From Sporomusa sp. KB1 (lineage in GTDB: Bacteria; Bacillota; Negativicutes; Sporomusales; Sporomusaceae), in contig NZ_VLKC01000001.1 in the NCBI RefSeq assembly GCF_007830295.1, forward strand, positions 143,773 through 207,772: a DNA stretch of 64,000 nt, in the 5' to 3' direction. Of the stretch, positions 958 through 57,861 are shown piece after piece. Numbering within the stretch: position 1 is the stretch's first letter; every line of letters starts with the position of its first letter. Below the pieces are notes generated by a model. The model was given only the letters and a program-made list of their open reading frames with translations, did no database searches and had not been told where the DNA came from. Position numbers and translations under genes: made by a program.

Positions 958-1626
958 ATGAGTAAAAGTACTCTAGACACTAATGAGCTTATAGAATATA
1001 AGTTGCTGACTTTTGCTGACACTGAGCAAACTGCTGCCTGTTTTAGCAAAATATTTATTTTTGAAGAGCCAATGACAAAAAGCCTGGGGTTGAGCCACCA
1101 GCAATTTCATTCTTTAGCCGAAGATTATTGCCAACTTGCAGCCGAGGATGGCTTGAGTTATATTTCGATTGAAAAAGCAACAGGTAACGTGATTGGTTTC
1201 GCAATTTGTGTTGATCTAAAATTTGATCCCGCACGTGCGAAAGCTGTTGATCCCGTAATTATGCAGCAAGTAATACCTTCGAGTGTGTTGCTTCAGGAAT
1301 TGGGGAATCGCTTTATCCAAAAAATGGACTTCATTGCTGGAGATTGTCTGCATATGTTTTATACCGGAGTAGATTCCCAATTTAAGGCGCTGGGGATAGC
1401 AACTTGCTTAGCAGAAAAAGCTTTGGCAAATGCAGTTTCTAAAGGATATAAATATGCCCTCGCCGAGTGTACCAGCTTAAAATCAAAAAAAGTCCTGGAG
1501 AAATTAGGATTTCGGGAAGAAAATCGTATAGTCTATGGTGATCTAAACTGTGATGGCCCTAACCCTTTTGAAAATCTGGAGGGATATTGTGCGCTAATGG
1601 TGAAAGAACTAACAAAAGGCTGTTAA
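958..1626 (+). CDS. GNAT-family N-acetyltransferase
   Basis: A 222-residue protein with the GNAT fold layout. A core beta-strand region around residues 80-90 (GNVIGFAICVDL) is followed by the acetyl-CoA-binding stretch FKALGIATCLAEKALANA (about residues 141-158) and the C-terminal ECTSLKSKKVLEKLGF motif. It would transfer an acetyl group from acetyl-CoA to an amine. The length exceeds the minimal GNAT domain by an N-terminal ~60 residues, as in arylalkylamine-type members. The start is well set by GAGGAGG 7 nt upstream. It is convergent with the NRPS gene and separated by a shared terminator, so it is not in that operon; a role in tailoring or self-protection is only a guess. Confidence 0.75.
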   Translation: MSKSTLDTNELIEYKLLTFADTEQTAACFSKIFIFEEPMTKSLGLSHQQFHSLAEDYCQLAAEDGLSYISIEKATGNVIGFAICVDLKFDPARAKAVDPVIMQQVIPSSVLLQELGNRFIQKMDFIAGDCLHMFYTGVDSQFKALGIATCLAEKALANAVSKGYKYALAECTSLKSKKVLEKLGFREENRIVYGDLNCDGPNPFENLEGYCALMVKELTKGC

Positions 1627-1713: not shown

Positions 1714-1743
1714 GAAAAGAGGAGGTAATACCTCCTCTTTTTC
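1714..1743. terminator. Bidirectional terminator between acetyltransferase and NRPS
   Basis: AAAAGAGGAGGTA (1715-1727) and TACCTCCTCTTTT (1729-1741) form an almost loopless inverted repeat. It is A-rich on the left and T-rich on the right, so it ends with a U-tract on both strands. It lies between the two convergent genes. Confidence 0.8.
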
Positions 1744-1748: not shown

Positions 1749-4700
1749 TTAATACTCGGTATCAAAGAACCCTAATCCGTCTAATGCTTCAATTGCTTTC
1801 TTAATGTATACTTCTGAAGTCAGTGGCCATTTAAAGTTTAGTCTGTATAGAACCTCTGTTGTAAATTCGTTTGTTCTACCTAATCCATAGACTGGTTTTT
1901 CTGTGCTATTTTCTTGATATGCCAAAATTCCTGTAAGTGCGGGCATAAGTTTAGCCTCCTGCATCTTTTCCTTTAAGCATTCTGCAAACTCACGGTCACT
2001 TACAATATCGATCGCAAAGCCATACTCTTTCATTGCGTAGATAATATCCGACATATAGATAGCATGATTGTTACAGGGATGGAATACCGTATATTCCTTA
2101 TTGGTTTGCGCCAGCTTTACAATGGCTTTTGCCGTACTATCAATTGGCGAAAACTCTTCCGCACCACCCATAAATGCTACCGGGAATTTCCCTAGCAGTT
2201 TAAAAGATTTTAAACTATTCATAAAGGAATTGCCCTGGAAGTTGATTTGGAATTCTCCGTCTGTATTTCTCGACATCAAATTGCCTACACGCATGATTTT
2301 GGCTTTCAATCCCTTATCTACTATTGCCTCTAACACACACCGTTCTGCCAAAAATTTACTATAGATATATTTATTGTCTAAGGTTTGTCCCAGATATAGC
2401 TGGGATTCTTTAATCTTACAATCCTTCATGGCCGCATCGCCTGTTCCGGAAACGCTGGTAGTGGAAACCTGGATTAACTGTGCCTTATTGTCCAGGCAAT
2501 ACTGGATTAGCTTTTGTACGCCGCCGACATTGACTTTTTCCAGTTCATCACCGGCCGCAAAATGTTTAACATTCGCCGCGCAGTTTATTACTGTATCGAC
2601 TGTTACTTGGCTTGCTGCCAATTCGGTAATATCGCCTTCTACGGTAAAGATCCGTTTTCCAAACAGTTCAGCATACTCATTGTCAAAGTAGTATACTAGC
2701 CGGACTTTCAGCCTGGTATCAGAGGCAATATTATCTTTGGAACGAATGAGACAATACACTTTGCCGGGATAGTTTTCCAGGAATTCTTTCAGGATATGAA
2801 TTCCTAAAAATCCGGTAGCGCCGGCTAAGAGGATATCACCGATTGGCGTCTCGGTTATTTCGCTTAAGGTATTTTTGGCGAGAAGTTTATCAATAGCACT
2901 ATAGTCATAGGCACTCACGTCGGTAGTTACCGCTTCTTCTACGTTGTTGGTTAAAAACTCGGCAAGTTTTTGCGGCGTTTGATGTTTAAAGACATTGGCA
3001 TAGGTTATTCCAATATCGAGTGCCATTGCTTTAACTACTACATTCATGGCTTGCAGGGAAGTGCCCCCAAGGTCAAAGAAGCTGTCTGTAATGCCTACTT
3101 TGTCAAGTGTTAGCGTTTCCGCAAAAATATGGCAAAGCTGCTCTTCCACTTCGTTCGTAGGCGCAACATATTCATTGTAGTTCTTGATTTCCGGCGTTGG
3201 CAGGGCTTTTACATCCATTTTTCCATTGGGTGTAACTGGCATCTTGTCTAGCTGGGTAAAGGTGGTAGGCACCATGTAGGCGGTAAGCTGCCGCTTTAAG
3301 TACTCGCGTAAATCACTTATGTCTATTTTGTCTTTCGCGGTGAAATAGGCGCAAAGATAATCTGCATTTTGCAGCTGTTTGATCGTAACTACACTTGCCG
3401 TTATGCCTGCATATTCATTCATGCGGGATTCAATTTCGCCTAGCTCGATCCGAAGCCCTCTCAGCTTAATCTGATCATCCATTCTGCCCATAATATCAAT
3501 TTCGCCAGCAGCCGTCCATTTGGCATAGTCACCAGATTTATAGACTCGTTCGCCCTTAAACTGGATAAACTTTTCGTCAGTCAGGTCTTGGCGGTTTAAA
3601 TATCCTCTGCCTACCCCTTTTCCACCAATGAGTAATTCGCCAACTACGCCGATTGGCAGTACATTCAACTCTTTATCGACAACATACAGCGCAACATTAG
3701 ACAGTGCTTTGCCGATTGTTATTTCTTCATTTTCAAGTTCTTTCGCATTTGTCGCTATCGTGGTTTCGGTCGGTCCATAGGTATTATAGATTAGCGCCGC
3801 CGTATATTTTCTCAGCGCAGTAAAGAAGTTTACCGGAAATTTTTCGCCGCCGCAGATAATTAATTTAATTTTACCAAGCGCCTTAGCAAAAGCCCCTGCT
3901 TCAATATACTGCATTATCCGTGAGGGAGTTGTCGACATCACATCAACACCGTTTTCCGTAATAAACTCAGCTAACAGCATGGGGTTATTGGCTCGATCTT
4001 CGTCGGCAAAAACCAGGGTTAAGCCATTGGCGAGTGTTACTAAGGCTTCTTCCAGGAATACATCAAAGGCGACGGTAGTGACTGATAGCATTGTCGAACA
4101 AGTGGTTACTATCTTGTTAATATAGAAGTTAGATTTTAGCGGCAATACATAATTTACAATATTGCGATGTTCGATCATTACGCCTTTGGGTTTGCCGGTT
4201 GAGCCTGAGGTATAGATGATATAGCACAGATTCTTTGCAGTTGCTTCGGTTTGGGGATTAGCTTCATTCTTATTTTGCAATAATTCATCAACAACTAAGC
4301 CATTGCTAAACTGATGTGTTGCCTGCTTACTTTCCGTTGTGATTATATATTGGGCTTCACTGTCTTCCAGCACATGTTTGATTCGGTCTGCCGGGTATTC
4401 GGGATCAACCGGAATAAAGGCACCGCCTGATTTGATTATGCCGAATATCGTGCAAATAAGCCTGCTGTCGCGTGGCAATAAAAAGGCGACTTTGTCTTCT
4501 GGTTTGATTCCTTTGGCGATTAATGCATTTGCTATTTTGTTTGCCGCCGTATTCAACGCGGCATAGGATAAGGTTTTGTCAATTGCGATAAGTGCTGGTT
4601 TCTCGTCATTTGCGGCTGCCGCTTTCTCAAATAGTTCTTGCAGGGTTTGGTCGGCATAGTCCTCGCTTGCAGGAATAAAGCTTGCCAGCAATTGTCGCTG

Positions 4701-7700
4701 CTTTTCATTTACAAGGGAAATATCTTTGCATAACAGCTGGGGATTTTTGGCGATTTGTTGGGCAAATTCAGCCAAGGCACTGCTTAGGGTCGCAATATAC
4801 GCCTTAGTATACAGACTTTCATCATACTCAATAACAAGCTGATACTCCTCATTTTTCAGGCTTACATCAATTGCTAAGGGGAATTTCACTTTGTTCAGCG
4901 CCAGGATCTCTGTTTCCAAGGCTTGTCCTTCGAGGATAGCAGTATCAAACAGACCGCCCTGATAAGCATAGTTAATCTGTGGTACGATTTTATGTTTTTC
5001 GACCATTTTGGTAAAGGGATAGATTTCATTTGCCAGGGTTGCATACATGTTTTCTTGCACGGCCTTAACGCAAGCTGCCACTGTTTCCCCAGGATTAATC
5101 TGAACAACTACCGGCAGGGTTTTTACGAACATCCCCATAATGCCATTTAGCTTATTTTCGCTTCTGCCGCTGGAAATCGTGGTTATCGCTATTCTTTCTT
5201 CTCTGGTATAACGGGTTAGGGTATTGCAGAGTGCTGCCAGGAATACGCTGCTTGGCGTTACAGCATTTTCTTTGCAGAAGTTTGTTATGCCCTGTCCGGG
5301 AATATTGGTGACAACAAGTTCAGCTTGACCTTCCCCCTCTCCCTTTGCTACTTTGGGAAGTTCAGTCATGCTGTCACTTAGCATATGATCGAAGAATTTT
5401 TCTGCAGCAAGATATGTTTCGCTTTCTGCCAGTTGTTCTTCTTCAAGAGCATATTCAAAGGCAGTATAGCTTTCCTGCTGAAGTTCTGCACCGTTATAGG
5501 CTGTTACTAAATCGGCGGTAAACACCCCTAAGGCACTGCCGTCAAAGATGATATGGTGAATATCTACAAATAAATAAGTGTAGTTTTCTGTATAGTAAAT
5601 GGCGATGCGGTAGAGCGGCCCGGCAAAGAGGTCAAAGGGCTGAACAAAGGCTGCCTTGATGCTCTCTATTTCTGCTTGGCTTACTTTTGCTACGCGAATG
5701 GCTACTGGTTTGTCATCTTGTCTTAGTTGTACAACTTGCCCGTCTTTGGTTCCCAGGCAGGTTTTCAGGTAAGGGTGGGCTTCTATCACTTTTTCAGCAG
5801 CGGCTTGCAGCTTATTGGGATCTACTTTATTGGAGAATTTGATTACTTCGGGAATGTTGTATTGCAGTGCTGCCCGGTCTTTTTCCCATTCGTAGTAAAG
5901 GCCGCGTTGGTTCTCTGTGAGTGGATAGCATTCTCTTTTGGCAAAAGCTGCTATTGTTTCTGCTTGGGCGGTAGTTTGGAGGATTGCTGCCAGCTTTTCG
6001 ATGGTTTTGTTTTGGAGGATATCATTTGTCTTGATGTTGAGGTTGAATTGCTGATAGATGGCAACTGACATCTTTATTGCCAACATGGAGGTCATGCCTA
6101 CATGGAATAGATCATCGGTAATGCCAAAGTCTTCTGTTCCTAACAGGTTGGCTACCAGGTCAAATAGCTGCTGCTGACTTTCCGTTTGTGGCAGTACCCG
6201 CTCTTGACGTTCAATCACCGGATCAGGCAAAGCTCTGCGATTTACTTTACCGTTTGAAGTAAGCGGCAGTTGAGCTAGCTCAGTAAAGGCAGTCGGAATC
6301 ATGAAGGTTGTAAGTTTCGCGGCCAGTTGTTCTTTTAGTTTTTCTACATCAATGTTGCTTTCCGCTGTATAGTAGCCGCAAAGGTGCTGTGTGCCGCCAA
6401 TTTCTTTAACGACAACAGCGCAGCTTGTTATGCCCTCATAAGTTAGGATTTGACTTTCAATTTCGCCTAATTCAATTCTCAAACCGCGTAGTTTTACTTG
6501 TCCGTCCATTCTCCCCAGGTATTCAATTTCACCATCCTTGGTCCATCGTACCAGATCGCCTGTTCGATAAATACGTTTCCCCTGCCACATAATAAACTTT
6601 TCCCGGGTTATGTCTTCACGGTTTAAATAGCCTCTACCAACACCAGCCCCACCAATGCACAGTTCACCGGCAGTTCCGATGGGAAGCAGTTGCAGATTGG
6701 TATCCAGCACATAGAGCTGATAGTTAGCCAGTGGCTTGCCAATAATTGCACTATTGTAATCATTCTTGATTTCATAGCTTGTTGTAAAAAGCGTACATTC
6801 TGTCGGCCCATAGACATTATAAAAATCATAGGCTGGTTTTTTGATCGGCAATAACTTTTCCCCACCCACAAGGAGTGCCCGTAATGACGTATTATCAAAT
6901 TCTTCAACAAACTGTCTGCCAAGCTGGGTAGTCATAAAGGCTATGGAAAGTTGATTTTCTTCAAAGTATTGATTAAGTTTGATAAAATCCAGTCGCATTG
7001 CTGTTGGGATGATATAGGTCGCTGCTCCACAGGTGATATAGGGATAGATATCCAGCATATGGGCATCAAAGCCAAAGTTTGCATAGCCTGCTGCTCGATC
7101 ATTTTCAGTTACGCGGTAATACGCTTGAAACCAATTGCAATAATTGGCCAGGTTATGATTTTCAAGTATGCAACCCTTGGGAGTTCCTGTAGACCCTGAT
7201 GTGTAGAGTATGACAAACATATCCTTAGGCACGGGAAGCGTCAGGGTTATACTTTCGTCAACCTCGATTGTGGCAATATCTGCAGTTGTTATTACCGTTC
7301 CGCTAAATTGAGGAAGATGTTCTGCTACTCTATTTTGCTCAGATAGTATCAGTTGAACACCGGCATCTTGGATCATGAACTCCAGTCTGTCGGTTGGAAA
7401 GGAATAGTCTAGCGGCATATAGGCTCCGCCGGCTTTTATGATGGCCAGTGGATAAATAACCATATATTCACTGCGATCAATAAGTACACCTACAATTTGT
7501 TCCGCGCCGACACCTACTGTTTTGAGTTTTTTGGCGAGCTTATCGGTTATTTCATCAAGTTCTTGGTAGGTATATTGCTTTTGCTCATAGACTACGGCGA
7601 TATTATTGGGCACTCGTCGTACTTGCTGCTTAAACATTTCAACGATACTGCCACATGGACTGCGGTATTCGGTATCGGTCTGGTTAAAGCATTCCAATGT

Positions 7701-10700
7701 TTTTAGTTGTTCGTCACTTATAATAGCAATGTCTTTGCATAATATGGTTGGATTTTCTGTTAATACAGCAGCCATTCCCGCCAGAATTTGTTCAATTTCC
7801 GCATTACCATATGTATTGGTATGATAGGTAATCCCGATTGTCAGGCTTTCCTGAAGATAGGCTATAACCGAAATACCATAGTTGGTTTGTTCGCGGACCG
7901 CCTCAGGTATAAAATCAATAGCAGCTTGCTGTATTTTGGGTTCGGCGATGTGGTAATTCTCAAATGCCATGATTGTCCTGATCAAACTACTGCCAGCATC
8001 ACTTAATTGCTGGACTTCAGAGAGCGCACAGGTGTCATAGCGGGTGCTTTCGATGGCCTGCTGCTGCAGTTTTTGCAGCAGACTGCCAAGGGTTTCCTCC
8101 TTGTCTGTTTGCACACGTACCGGAATGGTATTGATAAAGAGACCGACCATTTCCTCTGCCCCGGCAATGCCTGTATTTCTGCCAGATACTACTTTCCCGA
8201 ATACGACATCCCCGGTATTGGTATATTTTTGCAGCACCAAGCCCCAGGCTGCCTCGACTGCGGTGTTGATAGTCACATCATAGTGACTGCAAACAGTTTG
8301 TATTTGTTCGGTAATTTCTTTGCTGAACTGGTAGGTTACTGTACTTTCCTGTTCCTCGCCGCCAGTAGGAATACCCAATGGGTGAATCGCTGCGTCAGTA
8401 GAGTAGCCGCAAAGGAGATTTTTCCAATAGGTATGGGCCGCTTCCTTATTCTGAGCGAGAAGGCTTCTTACATGGTCCTCATAGCGTGTTCTTGTTGGTT
8501 GCCCAACTGCAATATATTCCTGACCGGCATAGAGAGTGTTACAGATATTCATAAAATCGTTCATGACAAGGGAAAGACACCAGCCATCAATAATGATATG
8601 ATGTGTGCTCCAGATCAGACAATAATTGTCTGCGGATATTTTTACTATGGTTACTCGCAGTAGTGGATCTTCCTGCAGATCAAAGCCGCGCTGAATATCC
8701 TGTTGTTTAAGCATTTCCAGCTGTTCTGACGTATCACTAGCACCACTTATGTCCACCTGACTTACTTCAAAAGCTCTTCCCTTGAGAATAGCCTGGCGAG
8801 ATTCACTCAGACCTTTGTAAAGAATAGCGGTCCGGAGTACTTCATGTATTTGTCCCAAGTGGTAGAGTGCTTTTTGTAATAAAGCTACAGATAATGGCTT
8901 AGTCAAACGAAAAATGTTTTGCAAAAAGTAGCTGGTAGACTCTGGTTCAGCCAGGCGGTGAAACAGCATTCCCTCTTGCATAGGGGTTAGTGGATAGATG
9001 CACTCTATTTCCCAGCCTTTGGCTTTCGTCTGCTGCAATAAGGCTTCGAATTCGGTATCATTCCAGACTATTTCGCCTAAATCGGCAGCCGTTATCTCAA
9101 TATTTTCATGGGAAACACAATGGGCTATCAGCAGCTTTAGTTCTTGGGCGAAAGCGTCCCCTAGCTGCGTTATCATGGCATCCTTGTATTTTGTTCGGTC
9201 ATAGCCGATATCCATCAATAGCTGCTTATCTTTCACTAAACCATTTAAGGCAATGGGCGAACCAAAGGTGTTGCCTTCATAGACAGCCTGCCCCTGCGGT
9301 GCTTGGTTATTTACAGCAAACAAGGCCCCTGTATGTTCTTCAGATAATTCCCCTAAGTAGTTAAAGGAGATATCTGGCTGAAGCTGTTGGTCTAATGCGG
9401 TCTCACCGATATATTGGAGAATACCGTAACCGATACCGTGGTTTGGCACACGTCGCAGTGTTTCTTTTACGCGACGTATATCACTCCTTATATCGAAACC
9501 GATATCAGTAAGAACGATAGGATATACGCTGGTGAACCAGCCTACTGTCCGGTCAATTGGCAGATGTTCACCAATAGGTTCTCTGCCGTGACCTTCCAGA
9601 TTAATGCTTACCGTTGTTTGCCCTGTAACCTTATGCACTGCTCTCCCGAGAGCGCAGAGCAGTAAGTCGTTGACTTCGGTATGATAGGCTATGGAGGCGG
9701 TGGAAACTAAGGCACGAGTTTGCTCTTCGTCTATCGCCACACTTACATTTCCCAAACCTGTCTCCCCGGAGCAAGCAGCAGGAATACGCCCGGCAGAAAA
9801 ACTATCCTGTACCTTCTTCCAGTAGGGAATTTCCTGTTTGATCGCATAGCTTGTGCGATAACGTCCGATGGCCTCACTCCACATTTTGAAGGATACGGTT
9901 TTAGGAGGAAGCGCAATTTGCTCGCTTCGCATGACTTGTCTGTACGCGGTATTTATATCTTCGATGAGGATACGCCAGGATACTCCGTCCACTACCAGAT
10001 GATGGATGACAATAAATAGCATATCGATAGACGGTGTACGGAAGAGTCCGGCCTGCAGCATGGGACCACTGGTCAAATCAAACCCAGCTTGCATGTTATT
10101 GCAGGCTACTTCCATAGCACTTTGCCACCGGTTATCTTCTTGATACTCATAGGTAGTCAGACTGTAGAGTTGTTCGCTTTCGACCGGACGAATCTCTTGT
10201 CGACCAGCCGAACGATAAACAGCCCGCAGCATGTCATGGTGTGCTGTCAAGGCATGTAACGATTGACCTAGTACGGTTTCGTCTACGCGCTGGGCTGATT
10301 CCAGCATTATAGATTGGTTGAAATGGTGGGGACGAGGCAAGTTTTGCGCAAAGAAATAGGCTTGAATGAAGGTTAACGGAGCTTCGCCTGCGACGGCTTG
10401 CTGATCAATAGTTGGCGTCGTACCTTGACAGGCGGCTGTTTCACTAATAGCACGAATGGTTTTTCCCTGCATCACTATTGGCACTGTTACAAAAACGCCT
10501 TGCTCACGAAGTTTGGACACCATCCGTATGGCCTTGATAGAATCTCCACCTAAAGCAAAGAAGCTGTCATCAATCCCAATCTTCTCTATGCCTAGTATCA
10601 TTTCAAATACGCTGGCAAGAATGGCTTCTGTTTCATTGTGAGGAGCTACATACGTGGCGCTGCCGTGTATCTCAGGTAAAGGCAGCGCCTTCCTATCCAC

Positions 10701-13700
10701 TTTACCGTTAGGTGTCAGCGGCAAACTATCTAATTGCATTAGGAAAGACGGCACCATATACCCAGTCAAGCTTGCGGCCAGATGTTCTTTTAGTTCTTCC
10801 GTATTAACCGTTTTGTTCGTTGTGAAGTAGCCGCACAAATGCTGGACTTTGCCAATTTCTTTAATTTCAGCTACGCTCGCTGTGATTCCGGCAAATTTAG
10901 CCATTGCATTTTCTACTTCTCCTAGCTCAATACGGAAACCTCTCAGTTTTACTTGATTATCAATTCTCCCTACATATTCAAGCTCACCATTTTCATTCCA
11001 ACAAACCAAGTCGCCGGTACGGTACAGCTTGGCATTTTCTTCGCAGGTCTTAAACGGATTGTCGATGAACTTTTCTTTCGTTAGCTCTTCTCTGTTCCAA
11101 TAACCGAGTGCTAATTGACTACCTGACATGCATAATTCTCCGGCTACTCCTATCGGCATTAGGTTATTGTTTTTATCAACCACATACGCCCAGGAGTTTG
11201 CGACAGGCTTGCCGATTGGTATGTTGCCACTATCTTTCTCTTGGTCTACCACATGATAGCTGGAGCAAATAGTAAACTCTGTTGGTCCATAGCCATTTAC
11301 CATTTTTATATTTGTTTTTTTCACTTGTTTGAGCTTTTCGCCGCCCATGATTATATATCGCAGCGACAAATCAAATTGATTGAGTAATTCCATGCCAAAC
11401 TGTGTACTAAAGGTACCGCCGGTAATGTGATTGGCATGAAAGTATTGATGTAAGCCATGCATATTTTGCCGCAGTTCTTCGCTGATGATATGCAATTGGC
11501 CGCCAACGCTAAGTGCTGTAAATAAATCTTCCACTGAAGCATCAAAGCTAAAGCTGCTGTGACAACAGAGGTTATCTTTTGCTGTTAATTGGTAATCTCT
11601 TGTCCGCCATGCTAAAAATGCCGCTAACGATTTATGCCTGATCATAACTCCCTTGGGCTTCCCGGTTGAGCCTGATGTATAAATCATGTAGGCTAGATTT
11701 TCTGTAGTTGGCACTGTAAGCTGGATGTCTTGGTTGCTTGCTGTGGCAAAATCAAATTCATCAATAAAGATGACATTGTCTACCTGCATACCTTTTTGCT
11801 GATAGATGCTCCTTTCAGTAATTAACACTTTGGCTTTGCTGTCCTCAAGCATATACTCGATTCTTTCTTGCGGATACTCATTGTCTAGTGGTACATAGGC
11901 CCCGCCTGCTTTCATGGTTCCGATAACACTTACCATGAACTCTTTACGCCTTGGCAGCATGATGCCTACAAAGGTATTTGCCGTTACGCCTAAGCGTACA
12001 AGTTCTTTGGCAAGACAGTCAGTATAACCATCTGTTTGTCCGTAGGTAAAACTGCTCTGTTCATCAACCAACGCAATATTGCTTGCATTTTTTTCAACCT
12101 GCTTTTTAAATAAGTCAAGGAAGGTAGCCTGCCTGTCATAAGCTACACTTCGACCTCGAAAATCGTTTAACAGTTTCTGCTCAGTTTCTTTAGAGATGAT
12201 TGCCAGTTTGCCGCAGCTCTGTTCGGGATTTTCTGCGATTTGATTGACGCATTCAGCTATCGCACTGCTTAGTCCCTCAATATATGCCTTTGTATATAGG
12301 CTGCCGTCATAGTCAATAGACAGTTCATACTCATCATTTTTCAGGCCTACAACTATAGATACTGGGAATTTAGCTTTATTAAGTGCTAAGCCTTCTGGTT
12401 CCAAGGGTTGACCGGCAAGTTCAACGGTGTCGAGCACACCGCCCTGATATACATAGTTAATCTGTGGTACAATTTTATGTTTTTCGACCATTTTAGTAAA
12501 AGGATACAGTTCATTGGCCAGGGTTGTAAACGTATTCTCTTGTATTGCCTTAACACAAGCTACCGCTGTTTCCCCAGGATTAATCTGAACAACTACCGGC
12601 AGGGTTCTTACGAACATTCCCATAATGCCAATTAGTTTACTTTCGTTTCTGCCACTGGAAATTGTGGTTATGGCTATTCGTTCTTCTCTTGTATAACGGG
12701 TTAGGGTATTGCAGAGTGCTGCCAGAAATAAATTACTTGGCGTTACGGCATGTTCTTTACAAAATTCCATTAGCTTTTGGCCTGGAACATTGACGACAAC
12801 GACTTCAGCTTGCCCGGTGCCTTCTCCTTTGCTTGTTTGGGGAAGTTCGGTCATGTTCCCGCTTAGCTTGTTATCAAAAAATTTTTCGGCTACAAGATAT
12901 TTTTCACTTCCTGCCAGCTGTTCTTCTTCGAGGGCATATTCAAAGGCAGTGTAGCTTTCCTGTTGAAGTTCTGCGCCGTTATAGGCTGTTACTAAGTCAG
13001 TGGTGAACACCCCTATTGCACTGCCGTCAACGATGATATGGTGGATATCCATAAATAAATAAGTGTAGTTTTCTGTATAGTAAATGGCAATGCGGTAGAG
13101 CGGCCCGGCAAAGAGGTCAAAGGGCTGAACAAAGGCTGCTTTGATGCTCTCTATTTCTGCTTCGCTTGCTTTTGCTACGCGAATGGCTACTGGCTGGCCA
13201 TCTTGTCTTAGTTGTACAACTTGCCCTTCTTGGGTTCCCAGGCAGGTTTTCAGGTAGGGGTGGGCTTCTATCACTTTTTCAACAGCGGTTTGCAGCTTAT
13301 GGGGATCTACTTTATTGGAGAATTTGATTACCTCGGGAATATTGTATTGCAATGCTGCCCGTTCTTTTTCCCATTCGTAGTAAAGGCCGCGCTGATTTTC
13401 CGTGAGTGGATAGAATTCTCTTTTGGCAAAAACTGCTGCTTCTGCTTGGACAGTAGTTTGGAGGATTGCTGCCAGCTTTTCGATGGTTTTGTTGTTAATA
13501 ATGTCGATTGTTTTTATATTGCTATTGAATTGCTGGTAGATTGCGGTTGACATCTTTATTGCCAACATAGAAGTCATTCCTACATGGAATAGATCATCGG
13601 TAATGCCGAAGTCGTCGGTCCCTAACAGATTGGCTACTAGGTTAAATAGTTGCTGCTGACTTTCCGTTTGCGGCAGTACTCGCTCTTGACGTTCGATGAC

Positions 13701-16493
13701 TGGAGTTGGCAGGGCTTTTTTATCTACCTTGCCGTTTGGTGTCAGGGGAATTTTATCAAGCTGCATAAAGGCAGTTGGCACCATATATTCAGCAAGGCTT
13801 TGACTCAGATGCTCTCGTAATTGATTTATGTCAATTTCCATATTGGCAGTGAAATAACCGCACAAATGCTGGACTTTGCCAATTTCTTTAACCTCAGCAA
13901 CACCTTCGGTAATTCCGTCAAAGGTTGTCATGGCACTTTCTATTTCCCCAAGCTCAATCCGGAAGCCTCTAAGCTTAACTTGATTGTCCATTCTGCCTAG
14001 GTATATAAGCTCACCCTGTTCATTCCAACAGGCTAGGTCGCCGGTACGGTACAGCTTGGCATTTTTTCCACAGGTCTGAAATGGATTATCGATAAACTTT
14101 TCGTTTGTTAGGTCTGGCCGGCCTAAATAGCCTCTGGCAATTTGCGGTCCTGCCAAGCAAAGTTCCCCTGGTACGCCCAGCGGCTGTAAGGCATCTGCTT
14201 GATCCAGAATATAAGCCCACGAATTGGCAACCGGTTTCCCAATCGGAATATTATCCAGCTGTTGTTGCACCAGATAATAAGTCGCGCAGACCGTAAACTC
14301 GGTAGGGCCGTATTCATTGATTAATTGATAGCCGCGTGGCTTATAACTACGCAGCTTTTCCCCACCGACAATCATATATTTCAAAATACTATTGTCACAG
14401 CTGGCCATAAAGGTTTCGGCAAACTGAGTTGGCAGACCAATAAAGGTTACCTTTTTTTCGACAATATACTTATTCAGACCTGTAATATCTTGCAGCAGCT
14501 CTTCCGGGATAATGAGAACAGCTCCCCCTTCAATCAGAAACGGGAAAATCTGTTTTACAGAGGCATCAAAGCTGGTGTTAAAGTACAAGGCTGAAATATC
14601 ATCTGGCGTTGTTTGATACTGGCTGTTATGCCAAATACACAGATGAATCAGATTAGCATGACTAATCATTACCCCTTTGGGGTTGCCTGTTGAACCTGAG
14701 GTATAAATGATATAGGCCAGGTCTGAAGGTCTATTAACTTTTGCCAGATTCTGAACCGGATAATCAAATAACCCGGGCATCCCCATATCAATAAAGGTAC
14801 CCTGAAACCCAACCGTTTTTGCCTTAAACTGCTCTACTCCCAGCAAAACAGGAATCTTGCTGTCGGCAATCATGTATTGAATTCTTCCATCAGGATAGTC
14901 GGCTGAAATCGGCAGATAAGCCCCCCCTGCTTTCATGATTGCCAAGGTGCCAATAACAAAATCGGCAGTCCGGGGGACCATAATCCCAACTACGGTATCA
15001 GGTACAACACCAAGATTTTGCAAACGGGCAGCTAAACTATCAGTTACCTTGTCCAGCTCAGCATAGGTCAAGCTTTGCTGGAAATCCAGTACCGCAATAT
15101 TTTCAGGAGTTTTGTCCACTTGTTCCTGAAATAACTCAATAAAGGTTTTGTCCGGAACAGGTAGCTGCGCCTTGTTAAATTCCACTAAGAGCTGCTGTTT
15201 TTCTGCTTCAGGCATAATTTCCAGCTGGAATAGTTGTTTCTGCGGGTTATCCAATAGATCTTGGATTAACGCCAGCAAACCAGCAAATAATCGCTCGATA
15301 GCAGCCGCATTAAATAAATCATTGCGATAATCAAGAGCTATCTCTAACGGCGAACCTTTCGGAAGTTGATTAGGATTAATCACCATATTTAGTAGGGCTG
15401 GGTCAGCTCCCTGATACCATTCCTTGGTAACAAATTTATCAGCTTTGGCATTGGGTATTTGCACCACATTGATATTGAGCAGGCCATCAGGTGTTTGTCC
15501 CCTCGCGCGCAAGTCCTGTGCAAGCAAGTTGTAGGGATACTGCTGATGAGCCATATCTTCCATTAACTGACAATGAACAAGACTCAGTAAATCGGCAAAT
15601 GTACTCTCACCATCAACCGCTATGCGCAGAGGTATTGTGCTTACATACATACCAATGGTATTAAGTTCTTTTCTATTCACCCGATTAAAATAAGCTGTAC
15701 CGATAATAATATCATTGCTGCGGTAGACCCGGGCCAAGTACATATAGAGTACAGACATCATAAACCGAAATAAGGTAGTCTCCTGTTCGCGGCAAAATTG
15801 ATCGATTTTATTTTGCAGCTCTTCCGCTACACCAAAAATCCGGCGTGTGGCAGCAATACCAGTTTTTGTTGAAGAAAATTGCATAGTAAGCGGCTCCGGA
15901 AGATTGTCAAGTCGTTGCAGCCAATATTCACGGTCTTGCGTGCATTGCTGGGAAACCAAATACTCTTCTTCCCGTGCAAAATAATCGGTAAATGAAGGCT
16001 TAGCTATCGCTTCTATATCCCTTCCGCTTTCCAGTTTTTCATAATATTCTACAATTTGCTTATTCAAGATGGAAAACGAGAACCCATCACTAATTACATG
16101 GTGCAGTTTAATATAAAATCCATAGCTTTCTTCCGAATATTTTACCAAGGCAAAATAAGCTAAAGGTGCATCCAGTAAGGCCAAGGGGGTCTGTGACTGT
16201 TTTTTAAACCACTCAGACAAACCAGGGCCTTGGATTACATCCAGGTCAATTTCCTGGTATTCTGCTACATACTGCTGCACACCACTGTCGCTCTGAATAA
16301 GCCGGATACGCAAGGCTTCATTATGCTGAATGGCCAGATTGATGGCTTTCGTAAGCAATTCCAGGTTAATATTACTTTTTTTCAGTAGCATGCTCGCGCA
16401 AATATTAGCGAAACTTGTTTCAGGCAACATCATTTCCGTAGACCAAATCCGCTGTTGCGGATGGCTAAGCGGATAACAAACAGGCTTCTTCAT
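1749..16493 (-). CDS. Four-module nonribosomal peptide synthetase with terminal reductase (C-A-T-C-A-T-E-C-A-T-C-A-T-R)
   Basis: A single ~4,914-residue NRPS. Landmarks (numbered from an in-frame ATG 45 nt upstream): C1 HHVISDG ~148; A1 YTSGSTG ~613; T1 VGMTS ~987; C2 HHIIVDG ~1168; A2 ~1623; T2 LGGDS ~1997; epimerase HHLVVDG ~2180; C3 HHIIIDG ~2648, expected to accept the D-residue; A3 ~3114; T3 VGMTS ~3481; C4 HHIIFDG ~3663; A4 ~4111; T4 LGGTS ~4491; reductase GATGFLG ~4575 with YSKFLAE ~4727. It would make a tetrapeptide with a D-residue at position 2 and release it by NAD(P)H reduction as an aldehyde or alcohol. C1 heads the chain, so N-acylation is possible. Specificity residues by eye: A1 DAKGIGEVC, A2 DAETIGGIC, A3 DALFLGVLF, A4 DVESIGTIA; no substrate assigned. 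The ATG at 16493 is chosen because GGGGGAGG lies 8 nt upstream. An ATG at 16538 overlapping the exporter stop has no such site. No phosphopantetheinyl transferase is nearby. Confidence 0.95.
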   Translation of the reverse strand: MKKPVCYPLSHPQQRIWSTEMMLPETSFANICASMLLKKSNINLELLTKAINLAIQHNEALRIRLIQSDSGVQQYVAEYQEIDLDVIQGPGLSEWFKKQSQTPLALLDAPLAYFALVKYSEESYGFYIKLHHVISDGFSFSILNKQIVEYYEKLESGRDIEAIAKPSFTDYFAREEEYLVSQQCTQDREYWLQRLDNLPEPLTMQFSSTKTGIAATRRIFGVAEELQNKIDQFCREQETTLFRFMMSVLYMYLARVYRSNDIIIGTAYFNRVNRKELNTIGMYVSTIPLRIAVDGESTFADLLSLVHCQLMEDMAHQQYPYNLLAQDLRARGQTPDGLLNINVVQIPNAKADKFVTKEWYQGADPALLNMVINPNQLPKGSPLEIALDYRNDLFNAAAIERLFAGLLALIQDLLDNPQKQLFQLEIMPEAEKQQLLVEFNKAQLPVPDKTFIELFQEQVDKTPENIAVLDFQQSLTYAELDKVTDSLAARLQNLGVVPDTVVGIMVPRTADFVIGTLAIMKAGGAYLPISADYPDGRIQYMIADSKIPVLLGVEQFKAKTVGFQGTFIDMGMPGLFDYPVQNLAKVNRPSDLAYIIYTSGSTGNPKGVMISHANLIHLCIWHNSQYQTTPDDISALYFNTSFDASVKQIFPFLIEGGAVLIIPEELLQDITGLNKYIVEKKVTFIGLPTQFAETFMASCDNSILKYMIVGGEKLRSYKPRGYQLINEYGPTEFTVCATYYLVQQQLDNIPIGKPVANSWAYILDQADALQPLGVPGELCLAGPQIARGYLGRPDLTNEKFIDNPFQTCGKNAKLYRTGDLACWNEQGELIYLGRMDNQVKLRGFRIELGEIESAMTTFDGITEGVAEVKEIGKVQHLCGYFTANMEIDINQLREHLSQSLAEYMVPTAFMQLDKIPLTPNGKVDKKALPTPVIERQERVLPQTESQQQLFNLVANLLGTDDFGITDDLFHVGMTSMLAIKMSTAIYQQFNSNIKTIDIINNKTIEKLAAILQTTVQAEAAVFAKREFYPLTENQRGLYYEWEKERAALQYNIPEVIKFSNKVDPHKLQTAVEKVIEAHPYLKTCLGTQEGQVVQLRQDGQPVAIRVAKASEAEIESIKAAFVQPFDLFAGPLYRIAIYYTENYTYLFMDIHHIIVDGSAIGVFTTDLVTAYNGAELQQESYTAFEYALEEEQLAGSEKYLVAEKFFDNKLSGNMTELPQTSKGEGTGQAEVVVVNVPGQKLMEFCKEHAVTPSNLFLAALCNTLTRYTREERIAITTISSGRNESKLIGIMGMFVRTLPVVVQINPGETAVACVKAIQENTFTTLANELYPFTKMVEKHKIVPQINYVYQGGVLDTVELAGQPLEPEGLALNKAKFPVSIVVGLKNDEYELSIDYDGSLYTKAYIEGLSSAIAECVNQIAENPEQSCGKLAIISKETEQKLLNDFRGRSVAYDRQATFLDLFKKQVEKNASNIALVDEQSSFTYGQTDGYTDCLAKELVRLGVTANTFVGIMLPRRKEFMVSVIGTMKAGGAYVPLDNEYPQERIEYMLEDSKAKVLITERSIYQQKGMQVDNVIFIDEFDFATASNQDIQLTVPTTENLAYMIYTSGSTGKPKGVMIRHKSLAAFLAWRTRDYQLTAKDNLCCHSSFSFDASVEDLFTALSVGGQLHIISEELRQNMHGLHQYFHANHITGGTFSTQFGMELLNQFDLSLRYIIMGGEKLKQVKKTNIKMVNGYGPTEFTICSSYHVVDQEKDSGNIPIGKPVANSWAYVVDKNNNLMPIGVAGELCMSGSQLALGYWNREELTKEKFIDNPFKTCEENAKLYRTGDLVCWNENGELEYVGRIDNQVKLRGFRIELGEVENAMAKFAGITASVAEIKEIGKVQHLCGYFTTNKTVNTEELKEHLAASLTGYMVPSFLMQLDSLPLTPNGKVDRKALPLPEIHGSATYVAPHNETEAILASVFEMILGIEKIGIDDSFFALGGDSIKAIRMVSKLREQGVFVTVPIVMQGKTIRAISETAACQGTTPTIDQQAVAGEAPLTFIQAYFFAQNLPRPHHFNQSIMLESAQRVDETVLGQSLHALTAHHDMLRAVYRSAGRQEIRPVESEQLYSLTTYEYQEDNRWQSAMEVACNNMQAGFDLTSGPMLQAGLFRTPSIDMLFIVIHHLVVDGVSWRILIEDINTAYRQVMRSEQIALPPKTVSFKMWSEAIGRYRTSYAIKQEIPYWKKVQDSFSAGRIPAACSGETGLGNVSVAIDEEQTRALVSTASIAYHTEVNDLLLCALGRAVHKVTGQTTVSINLEGHGREPIGEHLPIDRTVGWFTSVYPIVLTDIGFDIRSDIRRVKETLRRVPNHGIGYGILQYIGETALDQQLQPDISFNYLGELSEEHTGALFAVNNQAPQGQAVYEGNTFGSPIALNGLVKDKQLLMDIGYDRTKYKDAMITQLGDAFAQELKLLIAHCVSHENIEITAADLGEIVWNDTEFEALLQQTKAKGWEIECIYPLTPMQEGMLFHRLAEPESTSYFLQNIFRLTKPLSVALLQKALYHLGQIHEVLRTAILYKGLSESRQAILKGRAFEVSQVDISGASDTSEQLEMLKQQDIQRGFDLQEDPLLRVTIVKISADNYCLIWSTHHIIIDGWCLSLVMNDFMNICNTLYAGQEYIAVGQPTRTRYEDHVRSLLAQNKEAAHTYWKNLLCGYSTDAAIHPLGIPTGGEEQESTVTYQFSKEITEQIQTVCSHYDVTINTAVEAAWGLVLQKYTNTGDVVFGKVVSGRNTGIAGAEEMVGLFINTIPVRVQTDKEETLGSLLQKLQQQAIESTRYDTCALSEVQQLSDAGSSLIRTIMAFENYHIAEPKIQQAAIDFIPEAVREQTNYGISVIAYLQESLTIGITYHTNTYGNAEIEQILAGMAAVLTENPTILCKDIAIISDEQLKTLECFNQTDTEYRSPCGSIVEMFKQQVRRVPNNIAVVYEQKQYTYQELDEITDKLAKKLKTVGVGAEQIVGVLIDRSEYMVIYPLAIIKAGGAYMPLDYSFPTDRLEFMIQDAGVQLILSEQNRVAEHLPQFSGTVITTADIATIEVDESITLTLPVPKDMFVILYTSGSTGTPKGCILENHNLANYCNWFQAYYRVTENDRAAGYANFGFDAHMLDIYPYITCGAATYIIPTAMRLDFIKLNQYFEENQLSIAFMTTQLGRQFVEEFDNTSLRALLVGGEKLLPIKKPAYDFYNVYGPTECTLFTTSYEIKNDYNSAIIGKPLANYQLYVLDTNLQLLPIGTAGELCIGGAGVGRGYLNREDITREKFIMWQGKRIYRTGDLVRWTKDGEIEYLGRMDGQVKLRGLRIELGEIESQILTYEGITSCAVVVKEIGGTQHLCGYYTAESNIDVEKLKEQLAAKLTTFMIPTAFTELAQLPLTSNGKVNRRALPDPVIERQERVLPQTESQQQLFDLVANLLGTEDFGITDDLFHVGMTSMLAIKMSVAIYQQFNLNIKTNDILQNKTIEKLAAILQTTAQAETIAAFAKRECYPLTENQRGLYYEWEKDRAALQYNIPEVIKFSNKVDPNKLQAAAEKVIEAHPYLKTCLGTKDGQVVQLRQDDKPVAIRVAKVSQAEIESIKAAFVQPFDLFAGPLYRIAIYYTENYTYLFVDIHHIIFDGSALGVFTADLVTAYNGAELQQESYTAFEYALEEEQLAESETYLAAEKFFDHMLSDSMTELPKVAKGEGEGQAELVVTNIPGQGITNFCKENAVTPSSVFLAALCNTLTRYTREERIAITTISSGRSENKLNGIMGMFVKTLPVVVQINPGETVAACVKAVQENMYATLANEIYPFTKMVEKHKIVPQINYAYQGGLFDTAILEGQALETEILALNKVKFPLAIDVSLKNEEYQLVIEYDESLYTKAYIATLSSALAEFAQQIAKNPQLLCKDISLVNEKQRQLLASFIPASEDYADQTLQELFEKAAAANDEKPALIAIDKTLSYAALNTAANKIANALIAKGIKPEDKVAFLLPRDSRLICTIFGIIKSGGAFIPVDPEYPADRIKHVLEDSEAQYIITTESKQATHQFSNGLVVDELLQNKNEANPQTEATAKNLCYIIYTSGSTGKPKGVMIEHRNIVNYVLPLKSNFYINKIVTTCSTMLSVTTVAFDVFLEEALVTLANGLTLVFADEDRANNPMLLAEFITENGVDVMSTTPSRIMQYIEAGAFAKALGKIKLIICGGEKFPVNFFTALRKYTAALIYNTYGPTETTIATNAKELENEEITIGKALSNVALYVVDKELNVLPIGVVGELLIGGKGVGRGYLNRQDLTDEKFIQFKGERVYKSGDYAKWTAAGEIDIMGRMDDQIKLRGLRIELGEIESRMNEYAGITASVVTIKQLQNADYLCAYFTAKDKIDISDLREYLKRQLTAYMVPTTFTQLDKMPVTPNGKMDVKALPTPEIKNYNEYVAPTNEVEEQLCHIFAETLTLDKVGITDSFFDLGGTSLQAMNVVVKAMALDIGITYANVFKHQTPQKLAEFLTNNVEEAVTTDVSAYDYSAIDKLLAKNTLSEITETPIGDILLAGATGFLGIHILKEFLENYPGKVYCLIRSKDNIASDTRLKVRLVYYFDNEYAELFGKRIFTVEGDITELAASQVTVDTVINCAANVKHFAAGDELEKVNVGGVQKLIQYCLDNKAQLIQVSTTSVSGTGDAAMKDCKIKESQLYLGQTLDNKYIYSKFLAERCVLEAIVDKGLKAKIMRVGNLMSRNTDGEFQINFQGNSFMNSLKSFKLLGKFPVAFMGGAEEFSPIDSTAKAIVKLAQTNKEYTVFHPCNNHAIYMSDIIYAMKEYGFAIDIVSDREFAECLKEKMQEAKLMPALTGILAYQENSTEKPVYGLGRTNEFTTEVLYRLNFKWPLTSEVYIKKAIEALDGLGFFDTEY
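4800..6215 (-). repeat. Internal duplication in the NRPS, copy in T3-C4
   Basis: This stretch, from the T3 linker (ERQERVLPQTES) to the end of C4 (SLYTKAYI), is nearly identical to 12290-13700. The copies are in register at a spacing of about 7,485 bases, and runs of tens of identical bases are visible, for example around 5590-5650 versus 13075-13135. Boundaries are approximate. The flanking A domains differ much more. Confidence 0.8.
12290..13700 (-). repeat. Internal duplication in the NRPS, copy in T1-C2
   Basis: Partner of the 4800-6215 copy. It encodes T1 with the VGMTS site and C2. The high identity limited to T-C units suggests recent duplication or gene conversion within the gene. 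Confidence 0.8.
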
Positions 16494-16534
16494 AAAATTC
16501 CTCCCCCAAATATTTCGTTTTATATCTTTTACAG

Positions 16535-17779
16535 TCATTCGTGAGTGTCTTCTGCTACCTGCGGTATGAATAAAAAAGCTACCGACGTGATCATTAGGGT
16601 TATACCATTAACCGCAATAACCCACGGAAGCAAAAAATACTGTAAAAGCAAACCATTACATACATAAGCCAGCGGCACAAGCGCGAAACTAGCCGCACCG
16701 GCAAGAGCAAAAAACCTTCCTTTTATTGTATTAGGAATAATTTGCTGGAATGTTGCCTGCAGCGTAGTATTAACCAAGCCCATCGCAATGCCGGAAATAA
16801 AAAGAGCACCGGTAATTGCCAACCCGTTGGGGACCCAAGCCATTACTAAAGCCATAGCCCCCATGGTTAGCACGCTCAAGAAAATTTTCGGATAAATACT
16901 CCCCTGATTCAGCCTGGGGAAACAACTTAGTATAAGTGTGGCGATTACTGTTCCTAAGGCCATGGCTCCTTCCATGGCGGCCACCCAGCCAACAGAGTAC
17001 TGTAGCAGAAATTTAACGATCATAGGAATAAACAATAGTAACGGAGCCGCAAAAAAATTAATGATACAAAGGATCAGTGCCAAAATGCCGATGGCAGGCT
17101 TCTTCACTAAGTAAGCAATAATTTCACCCATCTTTCCCTGCTGACTTTCCGCCCGCGAACTGGTAGAGGATTCTAAATTGGTACGAATAGCCCAGATAAA
17201 GCAAAAAGAAAGCAGGAAAGTCAATCCATTTCCCACAAAAGCTCCCAACATTCCAATAGCCGCTAAAACAATTCCGCCGACTGCAGCTCCTAAAACATTA
17301 GATAATCCTAAAATAGAAGAGTCAATTGCCACAGCCTCCGGTAGCCTTTTGGTATCAGTCAGCAGTCCCAGGGAACTGCCGGCAGCGGCTTCAAACAGAG
17401 GAACAAAAGCGGCAATCGCAAAGCAGCAAAAATATAAAAAGGGCAAGCTAAATTCTTCTCGATAAAAAAAATAAGAAAGCAGTGCTAAAATGCTAAACCG
17501 AACGGCATCCGCGGCCATCATACAATGTTTTTTATTCAATTTATCAGCCAAGGTTCCCATCCACGGGGCAAACACCACCACTCCTACTACATTGCTGGCC
17601 ATCAGTAAAGCCAGGTGGAGCTTACTGTTTTCCCCGCCATACGAAACCACCCACCAGGCAAGTGCAATAGTAAAAAATTTATCCCCGATAGCGGAAATAA
17701 TTCGGCCCAGAAAAAGCATACGAAAGTCCCTGAATAAAACCAGAGGGTGTTGAGAAATAATTCCGTTTTTTTCTACCAT
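16535..17779 (-). CDS. MFS transporter, probable exporter of the NRPS product
   Basis: A 414-residue, largely hydrophobic protein with about 12 membrane segments. It has the MFS loop 2-3 motif (GTLADKLNKKHCMMAADAVRF, about residues 75-95) and an N-terminal FLGRIISAIGDKF of the MFS_3/EntS-like group that exports siderophores and macrolides. AAGGAG precedes the ATG. It is the first gene of a two-gene unit and its stop overlaps an ATG of the NRPS frame (ATGA at 16535-16538). This places it as the likely exporter of the NRPS peptide; that role is inferred from position only. Confidence 0.85.
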   Translation of the reverse strand: MVEKNGIISQHPLVLFRDFRMLFLGRIISAIGDKFFTIALAWWVVSYGGENSKLHLALLMASNVVGVVVFAPWMGTLADKLNKKHCMMAADAVRFSILALLSYFFYREEFSLPFLYFCCFAIAAFVPLFEAAAGSSLGLLTDTKRLPEAVAIDSSILGLSNVLGAAVGGIVLAAIGMLGAFVGNGLTFLLSFCFIWAIRTNLESSTSSRAESQQGKMGEIIAYLVKKPAIGILALILCIINFFAAPLLLFIPMIVKFLLQYSVGWVAAMEGAMALGTVIATLILSCFPRLNQGSIYPKIFLSVLTMGAMALVMAWVPNGLAITGALFISGIAMGLVNTTLQATFQQIIPNTIKGRFFALAGAASFALVPLAYVCNGLLLQYFLLPWVIAVNGITLMITSVAFLFIPQVAEDTHE

Positions 17780-18208: not shown

Positions 18209-18240
18209 AAAAAAAAAAGCATCTGCGTGAATAGATGCTA
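18209..18240 (-). terminator. Terminator of the GTPase-ATPase-trmO operon
   Basis: AGCATCT (18218-18224) and AGATGCT (18233-18239) form a 7-bp stem with an 8-nt loop. It is followed on the minus strand by a run of ten T (A-tract 18209-18218). Confidence 0.85.
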
Positions 18241-18317: not shown

Positions 18318-18800
18318 TTATTTTGCAAATCTCCCATCATCTCTTGTTGTCGCAAGCTTATGCATATTCTGTTCAAACCAGCCGGCTTTTACATCTTGCC
18401 GGGCATCAAATTCTGCTACATAAGGCTTTATATCCAAAAGAGGAGTTCCATCTACAATATCTACATCTCTGATACAAAGTTTATTGCCTTCAACCTTGGT
18501 AAGACGCACTACTGAAAAACCAATGGAGTTTGGCCTTCCCGGTGATCGCGTAGCAAAGATGCCATGCAGTTCATCGCCCAGAAATGGCTTAACTAATAAA
18601 CCAGACTCCTTTACCAGATGCAGGTGATAAAGAAGGATCAGATGTGAAAATTCTTCAATATCTTTCAAGCCCTCCCAATAACCGGGATATACTTCAATGA
18701 TACCTTCCACATCCCGCGCTGCCGTTGGTTGAATAGGCGTTCCTCTTGGCTCTTTAAACGGCGACTGAATGACGCCAATTGGTTTATAATAAATCATCAT
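18318..18800 (-). CDS. trmO: tRNA (N6-threonylcarbamoyladenosine37-N6)-methyltransferase TrmO (TsaA domain)
   Basis: A 160-residue protein made of one TsaA-type beta-barrel domain. Typical family stretches are present: PIGVIQSPFKEPRGTPIQ at the N-terminus, HLILLYHLHL near residue 55, and RSPGRPNSIGFSVVRL near residue 85-100. TrmO uses S-adenosylmethionine to methylate t6A37 in tRNA-Thr of Escherichia coli. Some anaerobe homologues lie beside metalloenzyme genes, so the substrate here is open. Two ATGs stand in tandem after GAGGTG. It is the last gene of a three-gene unit, 40 bases after the ATPase stop and before a strong terminator. Confidence 0.85.
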   Translation of the reverse strand: MMIYYKPIGVIQSPFKEPRGTPIQPTAARDVEGIIEVYPGYWEGLKDIEEFSHLILLYHLHLVKESGLLVKPFLGDELHGIFATRSPGRPNSIGFSVVRLTKVEGNKLCIRDVDIVDGTPLLDIKPYVAEFDARQDVKAGWFEQNMHKLATTRDDGRFAK

Positions 18801-18840
18801 TCACCTCTACATCCTCTTGAACTTGGCGGCACAGACGGAG

Positions 18841-19860: not shown

Positions 19861-19878
19861 TTAAACCCCAGTCCCTTC

Positions 19879-52890: not shown

Positions 52891-52915
52891 GAGAAAATAG
52901 AAAGGAATATAATGG

Positions 52916-54466: not shown

Positions 54467-54826
54467 TCCTTTTTAGGCTTGCGAATGTGGTCCATCGAAC
54501 CTAGAAATCGAAAACAACCTGGTGCAATTGATTATATTTCCCCATCAGGCCACTTTTGTGTCTACGGGGCGGGACGGGCGAGGCCGCGGCAGGAAACAAA
54601 CGGCGGTTACCGCTTGGTCAGGCGAGTGGCGGCAGTTGGCCCGGTGGAGCGGTTGGTTGCTACCGTTCTTTGTTTTCATCCCCGACGGTCGGCAAGCCGT
54701 CCGGTTGGGTCGGCCGGTGGTGTTTCGGCCGGTCTGGCCGGAGTGTCCTGCCGGGGCCCCGCGCAGCGTGCGGGGCCAGCCGCTGGTGGCAATTATTTTT
54801 TCATCCTATAGCGGTGGTGTCTTAAC

Positions 54827-54857
54827 CATTTACAAACCTGCGGTTTCATGCTATGCT
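54827..54857 (+). promoter_or_regulatory. Promoter before the 15-codon ORF
   Basis: TTTACA (about 54829-54834), a 17-base spacer and TATGCT (about 54852-54857). It lies ~30 bases before the small ORF with GAAGGAG. Confidence 0.5.
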
Positions 54858-54885
54858 AAAATCATCTTATCTGCGAAGGAGCTGT

Positions 54886-54933: not shown

Positions 54934-54941
54934 ATAGGCTG

Positions 54942-55140: not shown

Positions 55141-55161
55141 TTTTATCGCCAAGGGTTTATG

Positions 55162-57849: not shown

Positions 57850-57861
57850 CGGCCTCTTACG

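Follow-up and report, generated by a model that had tools for sequence, protein, structure and literature searches.

Locus and domain organisation

In a 64,000-nucleotide stretch of the Sporomusa sp. KB1 genome (contig C2, positions 143773-207772; hereafter the window), a single gene encodes a tetramodular nonribosomal peptide synthetase (NRPS) and is preceded by a gene for an exporter of the major facilitator superfamily (MFS). The genome spans 6.06 Mb in two contigs, C2 measuring 839,039 bases. Both genes lie on the minus strand and overlap by four nucleotides (Table 1). The exporter matches Pfam MFS_1 at 3e-26, and its NCBIfam matches, 2A0121 and EntS, both remain under their cut-offs (50.6 bits for EntS, where 324 are required). 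The initial annotation, made from the letters alone, had proposed that this exporter is coupled to the synthetase, and the gene overlap and co-occurrence speak for it, as the reductase domain and the MFS protein were both found in the same three of nine Sporomusa genomes, the window genome included (cut-offs of 1e-10 and 1e-40, respectively). Terminator-like stems flank the pair, following the NRPS gene and preceding the MFS gene, and suggest a two-gene operon; the consensus scan that called them found 22 sites where shuffled sequence predicts 16.5, barely above expectation.

Pfam recognises five Condensation, four AMP-binding and four PP-binding domains and one NAD_binding_4 domain in the protein, all with E-values of 2.1e-31 or lower. 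Together with the motifs they give the order C1-A1-T1-C2-A2-T2-E-C3-A3-T3-C4-A4-T4-R, in which C, A, T, E and R stand for condensation, adenylation, thiolation, epimerization and reductase domains. HHxxxDG is kept in all five C and E domains (residues 146, 1166, 2179, 2646 and 3661). Each of the four T domains has its motif with the phosphopantetheine serine (from residues 986, 1996, 3480 and 4490), and each of the four A domains has the A10 motif NGK. The T2 motif, LGGDSIKA, is the form usual ahead of E domains. The R domain carries GATGFLG at residue 4573 and YIYSK at residue 4724, and its alignment to the reductase structure 6vtj and to the AusA reductase retains the Ser-Thr and Tyr-x-x-Ser-Lys positions. 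The protein shows the architecture of an NRPS with reductive release, in-line C, A and T modules and a C-terminal T-R pair with motifs kept, and the gene is real and apparently complete. The module order first read from the sequence was upheld by motifs and domain models, and the catalytic residues of C1, E and R are unbroken at every motif checked.

Table 1. Features of the NRPS locus and of related loci (positions in the window unless a locus or genome is named).
Feature	Position	Strand	Basis or remark
Tetramodular NRPS gene	1749..16538	-	4929 aa, zero internal stops
MFS exporter gene (MFS_1/MFS_3), 414 aa	16535..17779	-	upstream of NRPS gene
C1, starter-type condensation, HHVISDG, predicted N-acylation of residue 1	15141..16469	-	motif, PDB search, tree
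A1, code DAKGIGEVC-K	13701..15128	-	alignment with EntF
T1	13437..13685	-	motif and domain model
C2, elongation condensation (LCL position)	12129..13379	-	domain model, tree
A2, code DAETIGGIC-K	10674..12128	-	alignment with EntF
T2, LGGDSIKA	10416..10655	-	motif and domain model
E, epimerization domain	9078..10376	-	PDB matches, E clade 100/100
C3, DCL-type condensation	7686..8990	-	PDB matches, DCL clade 100/100
A3, code DALFLGVLF-K	6219..7685	-	alignment with EntF
T3	5955..6203	-	motif and domain model
C4, elongation condensation, 78% identical to C2	4674..5894	-	pairwise identity, tree
A4, code DVESIGTIA-K; its residue would form the reduced C-terminus	3192..4673	-	alignment with EntF
T4, LGGTSLQA	2931..3173	-	motif and domain model
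R, terminal thioester reductase	1752..2861	-	Pfam NAD_binding_4 2.1e-31; PDB 6vtj, 4f6l
T1-C2 copy of duplicated T-C block	12249..13706	-	edges approximate
T3-C4 copy of duplicated T-C block	4734..6221	-	edges approximate
Terminator-like stem, near-palindromic, directly after NRPS stop	1714..1742	called on + strand	consensus scan, weak
Terminator-like stem between trmO-like gene and MFS gene	18218..18239	-	consensus scan, weak
C-A-T-E-C-A-T-R protein	L068:9782-18667, L069 from 9860, L070 from 8696, L071 from 8027, L072 from 8212		genomes G014, G038, G021, G012, G049
Giant NRPS clusters	G014:C88 ~19964-52760; G049:C1 ~5222400-5253000; G012:C12 ~8240-40660; G021:C109 ~9300-33998

Condensation, epimerization and adenylation domain types

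C1 and its partner in Sporomusa ovata fall in a clade of nine rows (support 98/92 in a 63-row tree), all of them protein-initial or starter C domains, including RzmA-Cs and EntF; an earlier 64-row tree held C1 in the same starter grouping at 95/97. The first tree left out L052, L058, L054_11522 and C stretches shorter than 280 residues, and the second also left out L046, L048, L056, L060, L061, L010, L011 and the sets of G049 and G021, while the loci L068-L072 were dropped as such and two of them re-entered as rows of G014 and G012. In a search of the PDB, C1 matched RzmA-Cs third (93 bits over residues 20-344 of the piece searched), a starter domain that uses acyl-CoA and in which position 148 is described as gating acyl length (PMC7804268). 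The alignment from this search places a Phe of C1 opposite that position, which, distant as the alignment is, hints at a short acyl chain. Given its supported clade with RzmA-Cs and EntF, and the HHxxxDG motif that this protein-initial domain retains, N-acylation of residue 1 by C1 is favoured. An alternative was considered for the five first C domains that shared the clade of C1 in the first tree; they belong to proteins of 2961-2990 residues from other Negativicutes, several of them near giant NRPS genes, and might have been condensation domains elongating in trans. Giant NRPS genes were therefore retrieved from four of the five genomes, and those of G014 and G012 entered the second tree. 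There C1 and the first C domains of the 2961- and 2990-residue proteins remained with the starters, whereas other protein-initial C domains of these clusters went to the DCL (three) or LCL (two) clades.

At a cut-off of 1e-20, the E domain matched ten sequences in the PDB, in presumed E domains of bacitracin synthase 3, TycB, GrsA, PvdL and TycA, and its clade, which includes the E domain of bacitracin synthase 3, has support of 100/100. For C3, a cut-off of 1e-15 gave 17 PDB sequences. Ten of them, with bacitracin synthase 3 and TycB at the top, scored 215-296 bits and the remaining seven 67-84 bits, and C3 lies in a DCL clade with support of 100/100. C2 and C4 are sister domains within the elongation clade. 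Residue 2 is accordingly predicted in the D form, and both a D-residue at this position and a leading C domain of starter type, claims of the initial annotation, find their support in these clades.

Specificity codes were read through alignment to Escherichia coli EntF, which itself returned DVWHFSLVD, the EntF code for serine. Each of the four codes ends in the A10 lysine, and the three readable A domains of S. ovata carry the same codes as their counterparts. Alignment confirmed the Lys239 noticed earlier in A1 and, as had been found before it, the specificity residues fit no assignable code. The A1 code matches none of the codes compared; that of A2 is presumably nearest to Phe, that of A3 nearest to Ile or Val and aliphatic-looking, and that of A4 seems to share features with Lys, all of which serve as leads only.

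Release chemistry and the predicted product

A piece comprising T4 and R scored 305 bits against 6vtj, presumably an archaeal R domain from Methanobrevibacter ruminantium, 183 bits against the AusA R domain (4f6l), and 59.5 bits against MxaA, so that the R-type reductase predicted at the outset is related to that of AusA. AusA releases its product by two-electron reduction (PMC8210680), and the nearness of the two R domains suggests the same chemistry here. A clean reading frame, intact motifs, domain types assigned by clade, and an R domain near that of AusA together lead us to the view, held with fair though not full confidence, that this single protein probably builds an N-acylated tetrapeptide and frees it by reduction as the aldehyde acyl-X1-D-X2-X3-X4-al, which the MFS protein of the operon would export.

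In the mechanism we propose, T1-T4 would be primed by a phosphopantetheinyl transferase (PPTase) encoded elsewhere, for which the window genome offers four PPTase-domain matches as candidates, any pairing with this synthetase being conjectural. C1, judging from its clade and position, would join an acyl group from coenzyme A or an acyl carrier protein to residue 1 on T1, C2 would add residue 2, and E would epimerise that residue to its D form. Residues 3 and 4 would then be added by C3, of the DCL type, and C4, in the order given by the sequence, before R, using NAD(P)H, would release the chain as the aldehyde by a two-electron reduction and the MFS protein would carry it out of the cell. As to its role, one may guess that such an aldehyde inhibits cysteine or serine proteases covalently or acts as a signal.

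Several observations weigh against this model. The A domain codes point to no confident substrate. The operon lacks a PPTase gene, and no acyl ligase was seen among the flanking open reading frames (ORFs) that were scanned. The starter assignment of C1 has its own difficulties: Txo2, the best PDB match of C1 (103 bits), is itself an LCL (elongation) domain by its clade; at three loci (L051, L062 and L054) the protein-initial C domain groups among elongation domains and not with C1; that of Sporomusa malonica is unplaced (84/53); the sister row of C1 (L073) is a long branch flagged as unsure by the tree program; and identity between C1 and the remaining C domains of the gene is just 22%. In S. 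ovata, moreover, the NRPS occupies two overlapping frames (1732 and 3183 residues, 91% identical to the window protein) with the break inside A2, which may be a mutation or a sequencing error.

The rival readings that follow overlap with one another, and their probabilities added to that of the preferred explanation exceed one. A four-electron reduction by R, or the action of a separate aldehyde reductase, would yield an N-acyl tetrapeptide alcohol. R domains are known for both types of reduction (PMC12783407) and no sequence test separated the two, but the window R domain scores far higher against AusA than against MxaA, and we consider the alcohol unlikely. At the opposite end of the chain, a vestigial C1 would leave a free amino group to react with the aldehyde, giving a cyclic imine in the manner of lugdunin, where reductive release is followed by attack of the N-terminal amine on the aldehyde (PMC8210680). 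The leading C domain can indeed vary within the genus, that of S. malonica reading CHLNTDG with its first His lost; the window C1, however, retains HHVISDG and groups with starter domains, and the imine appears quite improbable. Activity of C1 would also disfavour a pyrazinone precursor, offered as an alternative in the initial annotation, because the pyrazinones described derive from free dipeptide aldehydes such as that of AusA (PMC8210680).

Whether the locus is a remnant, silent or without product, is a question that cuts across these readings. Six of the nine Sporomusa genomes (one of the six only 58% complete) have neither an R match at 1e-10 nor an MFS match at 1e-40, the broken S. ovata frame described above fits decay, and a neighbouring aldehyde ferredoxin oxidoreductase (AFOR) gene of the window genome is itself split over two frames, although an ambiguous base within it makes sequence error possible. 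Against this stand the 4929 stop-free codons of the window gene and the integrity of every motif checked in it, and a remnant is in our judgement improbable. A metallophore line served by TonB receptors and an EntS-like exporter would account for the weak EntS similarity of the MFS protein and for two TonB receptor genes about 10-15 kb past the 3' end of the NRPS gene (L009 2037-4007 and 5758-7803), yet no chelator-forming gene appeared among the part of the neighbouring ORFs scanned and peptide metallophores are not typically known to be released by an R domain; we regard this reading as very improbable. The acyl tetrapeptide aldehyde is retained as the best explanation.

Relatives of the synthetase

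Relatives were sought with a 463-residue T-R piece in 120 genomes at a cut-off of 1e-10, and 16 genomes, the window genome included, gave matches. The sole close ones were those of S. ovata (95% identity) and S. malonica (74%). Identity falls to 25-35% in the remaining genera of the family, order and class that gave a match, and also for the additional matches within the window genome and S. ovata. The exporter is 89% identical in S. ovata and 31% in S. malonica; a fourth MFS match (S. ovata C1:666669-667871) belongs to the surroundings of a different NRPS, whose first C domain starts some 0.6 kb further on. Among named genomes, 19 of 186 pattern-matching stretches encode a relative, two in Sporomusa and 17 in metagenome-assembled genomes (MAGs) of Clostridia and Bacteroidales, many of gut or rumen origin by title. 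The T-R didomains of these 17 are 38-53% identical to that of the window, and four of the loci (L051, L056, L057 and L062) hold a whole C-A-T-C-A-T-R protein, others being longer or cut by contig ends. These R-terminated synthetases appear to be the closest relatives outside the genus.

Five genomes from five families of the class, all of other genera, encode a separate C-A-T-E-C-A-T-R protein of 2961-2990 residues. Its codes are near-identical in all five, DAWL(I/F)GAVI and DAWFLGHVV, which we take to be Leu-like, and in the two genomes represented in the tree its first C domain falls among the starters. These two features suggest that it may make acyl-D-Leu-leucinal, a leupeptin-like aldehyde. 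Giant multi-gene NRPS clusters, with single frames of up to about 6200 residues, were also seen in other Negativicutes, and share a contig with the dimodular R protein in three of the four genomes G014, G049, G012 and G021.

Rearrangement between Sporomusa species

The S. malonica homolog, a protein of 4427 residues, is likewise tetramodular and R-terminated, without an E domain and among other neighbours, with a PPTase gene directly behind it. From first to last, its A domains belong to the A3, A3, A4 and A2 types of the window gene (supports 99/96, 99/97 and 100/99) in a tree for which L052, L010, L011 and A stretches shorter than 400 residues, the split S. ovata A2 among them, were left out beforehand, and which kept 48 of 56 rows after eight rows of L056-L059 and L061 had been dropped. 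The residue to be reduced at the C-terminus would thus be picked in S. malonica by an A domain of a different type, A2 in place of A4. The C domains behave otherwise: those internal to the S. malonica protein group as sisters of one another (99/96), and a single group (100/98) unites C2 and C4 from the window gene with their S. ovata counterparts. Over residues 950-1460 of the window protein, the T1-C2 stretch is 81% identical to T3-C4 in protein and 83% in nucleotide sequence, while the flanking A domains mostly fall below 55%.

Taken together, the A-type orders, the sisterhood of the C domains and the identity of the T-C blocks suggest that A domains are conserved as units between species and that T-C blocks have been homogenised within each lineage. 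Rearrangement of NRPS genes is well known in general, and is seen here between species of one genus. A wider proposal, in which A units move (1-2-3-4 against 3-3-4-2), T-C blocks are homogenised and T4-R stays fixed, and natural module shuffling so gives rise to a genus-wide family of differently capped and ended aldehydes, strikes us as evenly poised between right and wrong. This shuffling of A domains is the most interesting aspect of the line. Natural cut points, at the A-T linker and at the end of the C domain, are marked by the duplication of the T-C block and by the displaced A domains, and are relevant to the recombination of NRPS modules.

Neighbouring genes and other lines in the genome

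The AFOR gene (window 153-593 and L009:14641-16366) is convergent with the NRPS gene, and its two frames in the window genome correspond to a single frame of 575 residues in S. ovata. An aldehyde-oxidising neighbour beside a presumed aldehyde-making line is suggestive. Between the two genes sits a GNAT-type acetyltransferase (window 958-1626), found at 1e-20 in only two of the nine Sporomusa genomes, those of the window and of S. ovata, which might modify the peptide. On the other side, a trmO-like gene, an ABC ATPase and a CobW/HypB-like GTPase follow in a row (window 18318-20565) and are kept in S. ovata. An RND pump with its fusion protein, guessed from ORF starts beside the S. ovata operon, was discarded when Pfam returned GGDEF-EAL and DctP. 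Further along, window 52000-58000 has a G+C content of 53-58% against about 43% over most of the window and may therefore be of foreign origin; it opens with genes for an HlyD-like fusion protein and an MFS protein.

Acetogenesis, and not natural-product formation, is what the genus Sporomusa is known for. The window genome nevertheless has a second NRPS cluster (L010:8038-19999 and L011:4785-17478; G000:C1 ~1330000-1359500), which carries TubC_N docking, methyltransferase and thioesterase domains and a gene with a PPTase domain. Elsewhere, a modular polyketide synthase that ends in an NAD_binding_4 (thioester reductase) domain (L076:9316-19998; G000:C1 ~4887300-4898000), cut at the end of the stretch and matched by a frame of 4254 residues in S. 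ovata, appears to be another line with reductive release. Two papers mention NRPS clusters for Sporomusa termitida, among them a putative karamomycin-like metallophore cluster (PMC12971057) of which the second cluster of the window genome may be the counterpart. Our search of the literature on the genus and class found no paper on the tetramodular line. As a complete one-protein line with its exporter, it offers a practical target for heterologous expression and, should its product be an acyl tetrapeptide aldehyde, reactive peptide aldehydes would extend from gut Clostridia to free-living acetogens.

Comparison with known systems

AusA/PznA of Staphylococcus has the core A-T-C-A-T-R, and thus is dimodular, without a starter C or an E domain, whereas the window line has four modules with both. 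The AusA model NF047350 gave 2739.9 bits against a cut-off of 2500, a sum over repeated modules in which the best single stretch, from the end of C3 through R (residues 2892-4914), reached 1170 bits. Other long NRPSs pass the same model in three further genomes of 300 sampled in the class. Since the cut-off is passed only by summing repeats, and by other long NRPSs too, membership of the AusA family was rejected, the homology of the R domains notwithstanding.

Gut dipeptide aldehydes and ruminopeptin are products of R-terminated NRPSs (PMC8210680, PMC12327764). Their setting is the group of Clostridia and Bacteroidales synthetases described above, whose T-R didomains, as best matches from MAGs, are 38-53% identical to that of the window line and may belong to the same branch. 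The first C domains of L057 and L059 stand in the clade of C1. The loci L056-L059 are presumably the rup cluster. The whole proteins seen in this group have two or three modules and no E domain, several loci being cut by contig ends, and dipeptide aldehydes have two residues where the window line has four A domains. The nearest solved R domain, 6vtj, presumably comes from M. ruminantium, whose mru0068 is described, with no mention of an E domain, as two C-A-T modules and a releasing domain with an adjoining MatE exporter (PMC2812497); the window line has four modules, an E domain and an MFS exporter. In product length the closest parallel comes from the omicsynin, antipain-like and chymostatin lines of Streptomyces, four-residue peptides with an aldehyde warhead made by an R domain (PMC12783407). 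They are ureido pseudo-tetrapeptides assembled by several NRPS genes, in contrast to the one protein with starter C and E domains found here. Judged by its domains, the window line thus appears to be a longer relative of known reductively released peptide systems rather than a new kind of system, belonging neither to AusA nor to the dipeptide line.

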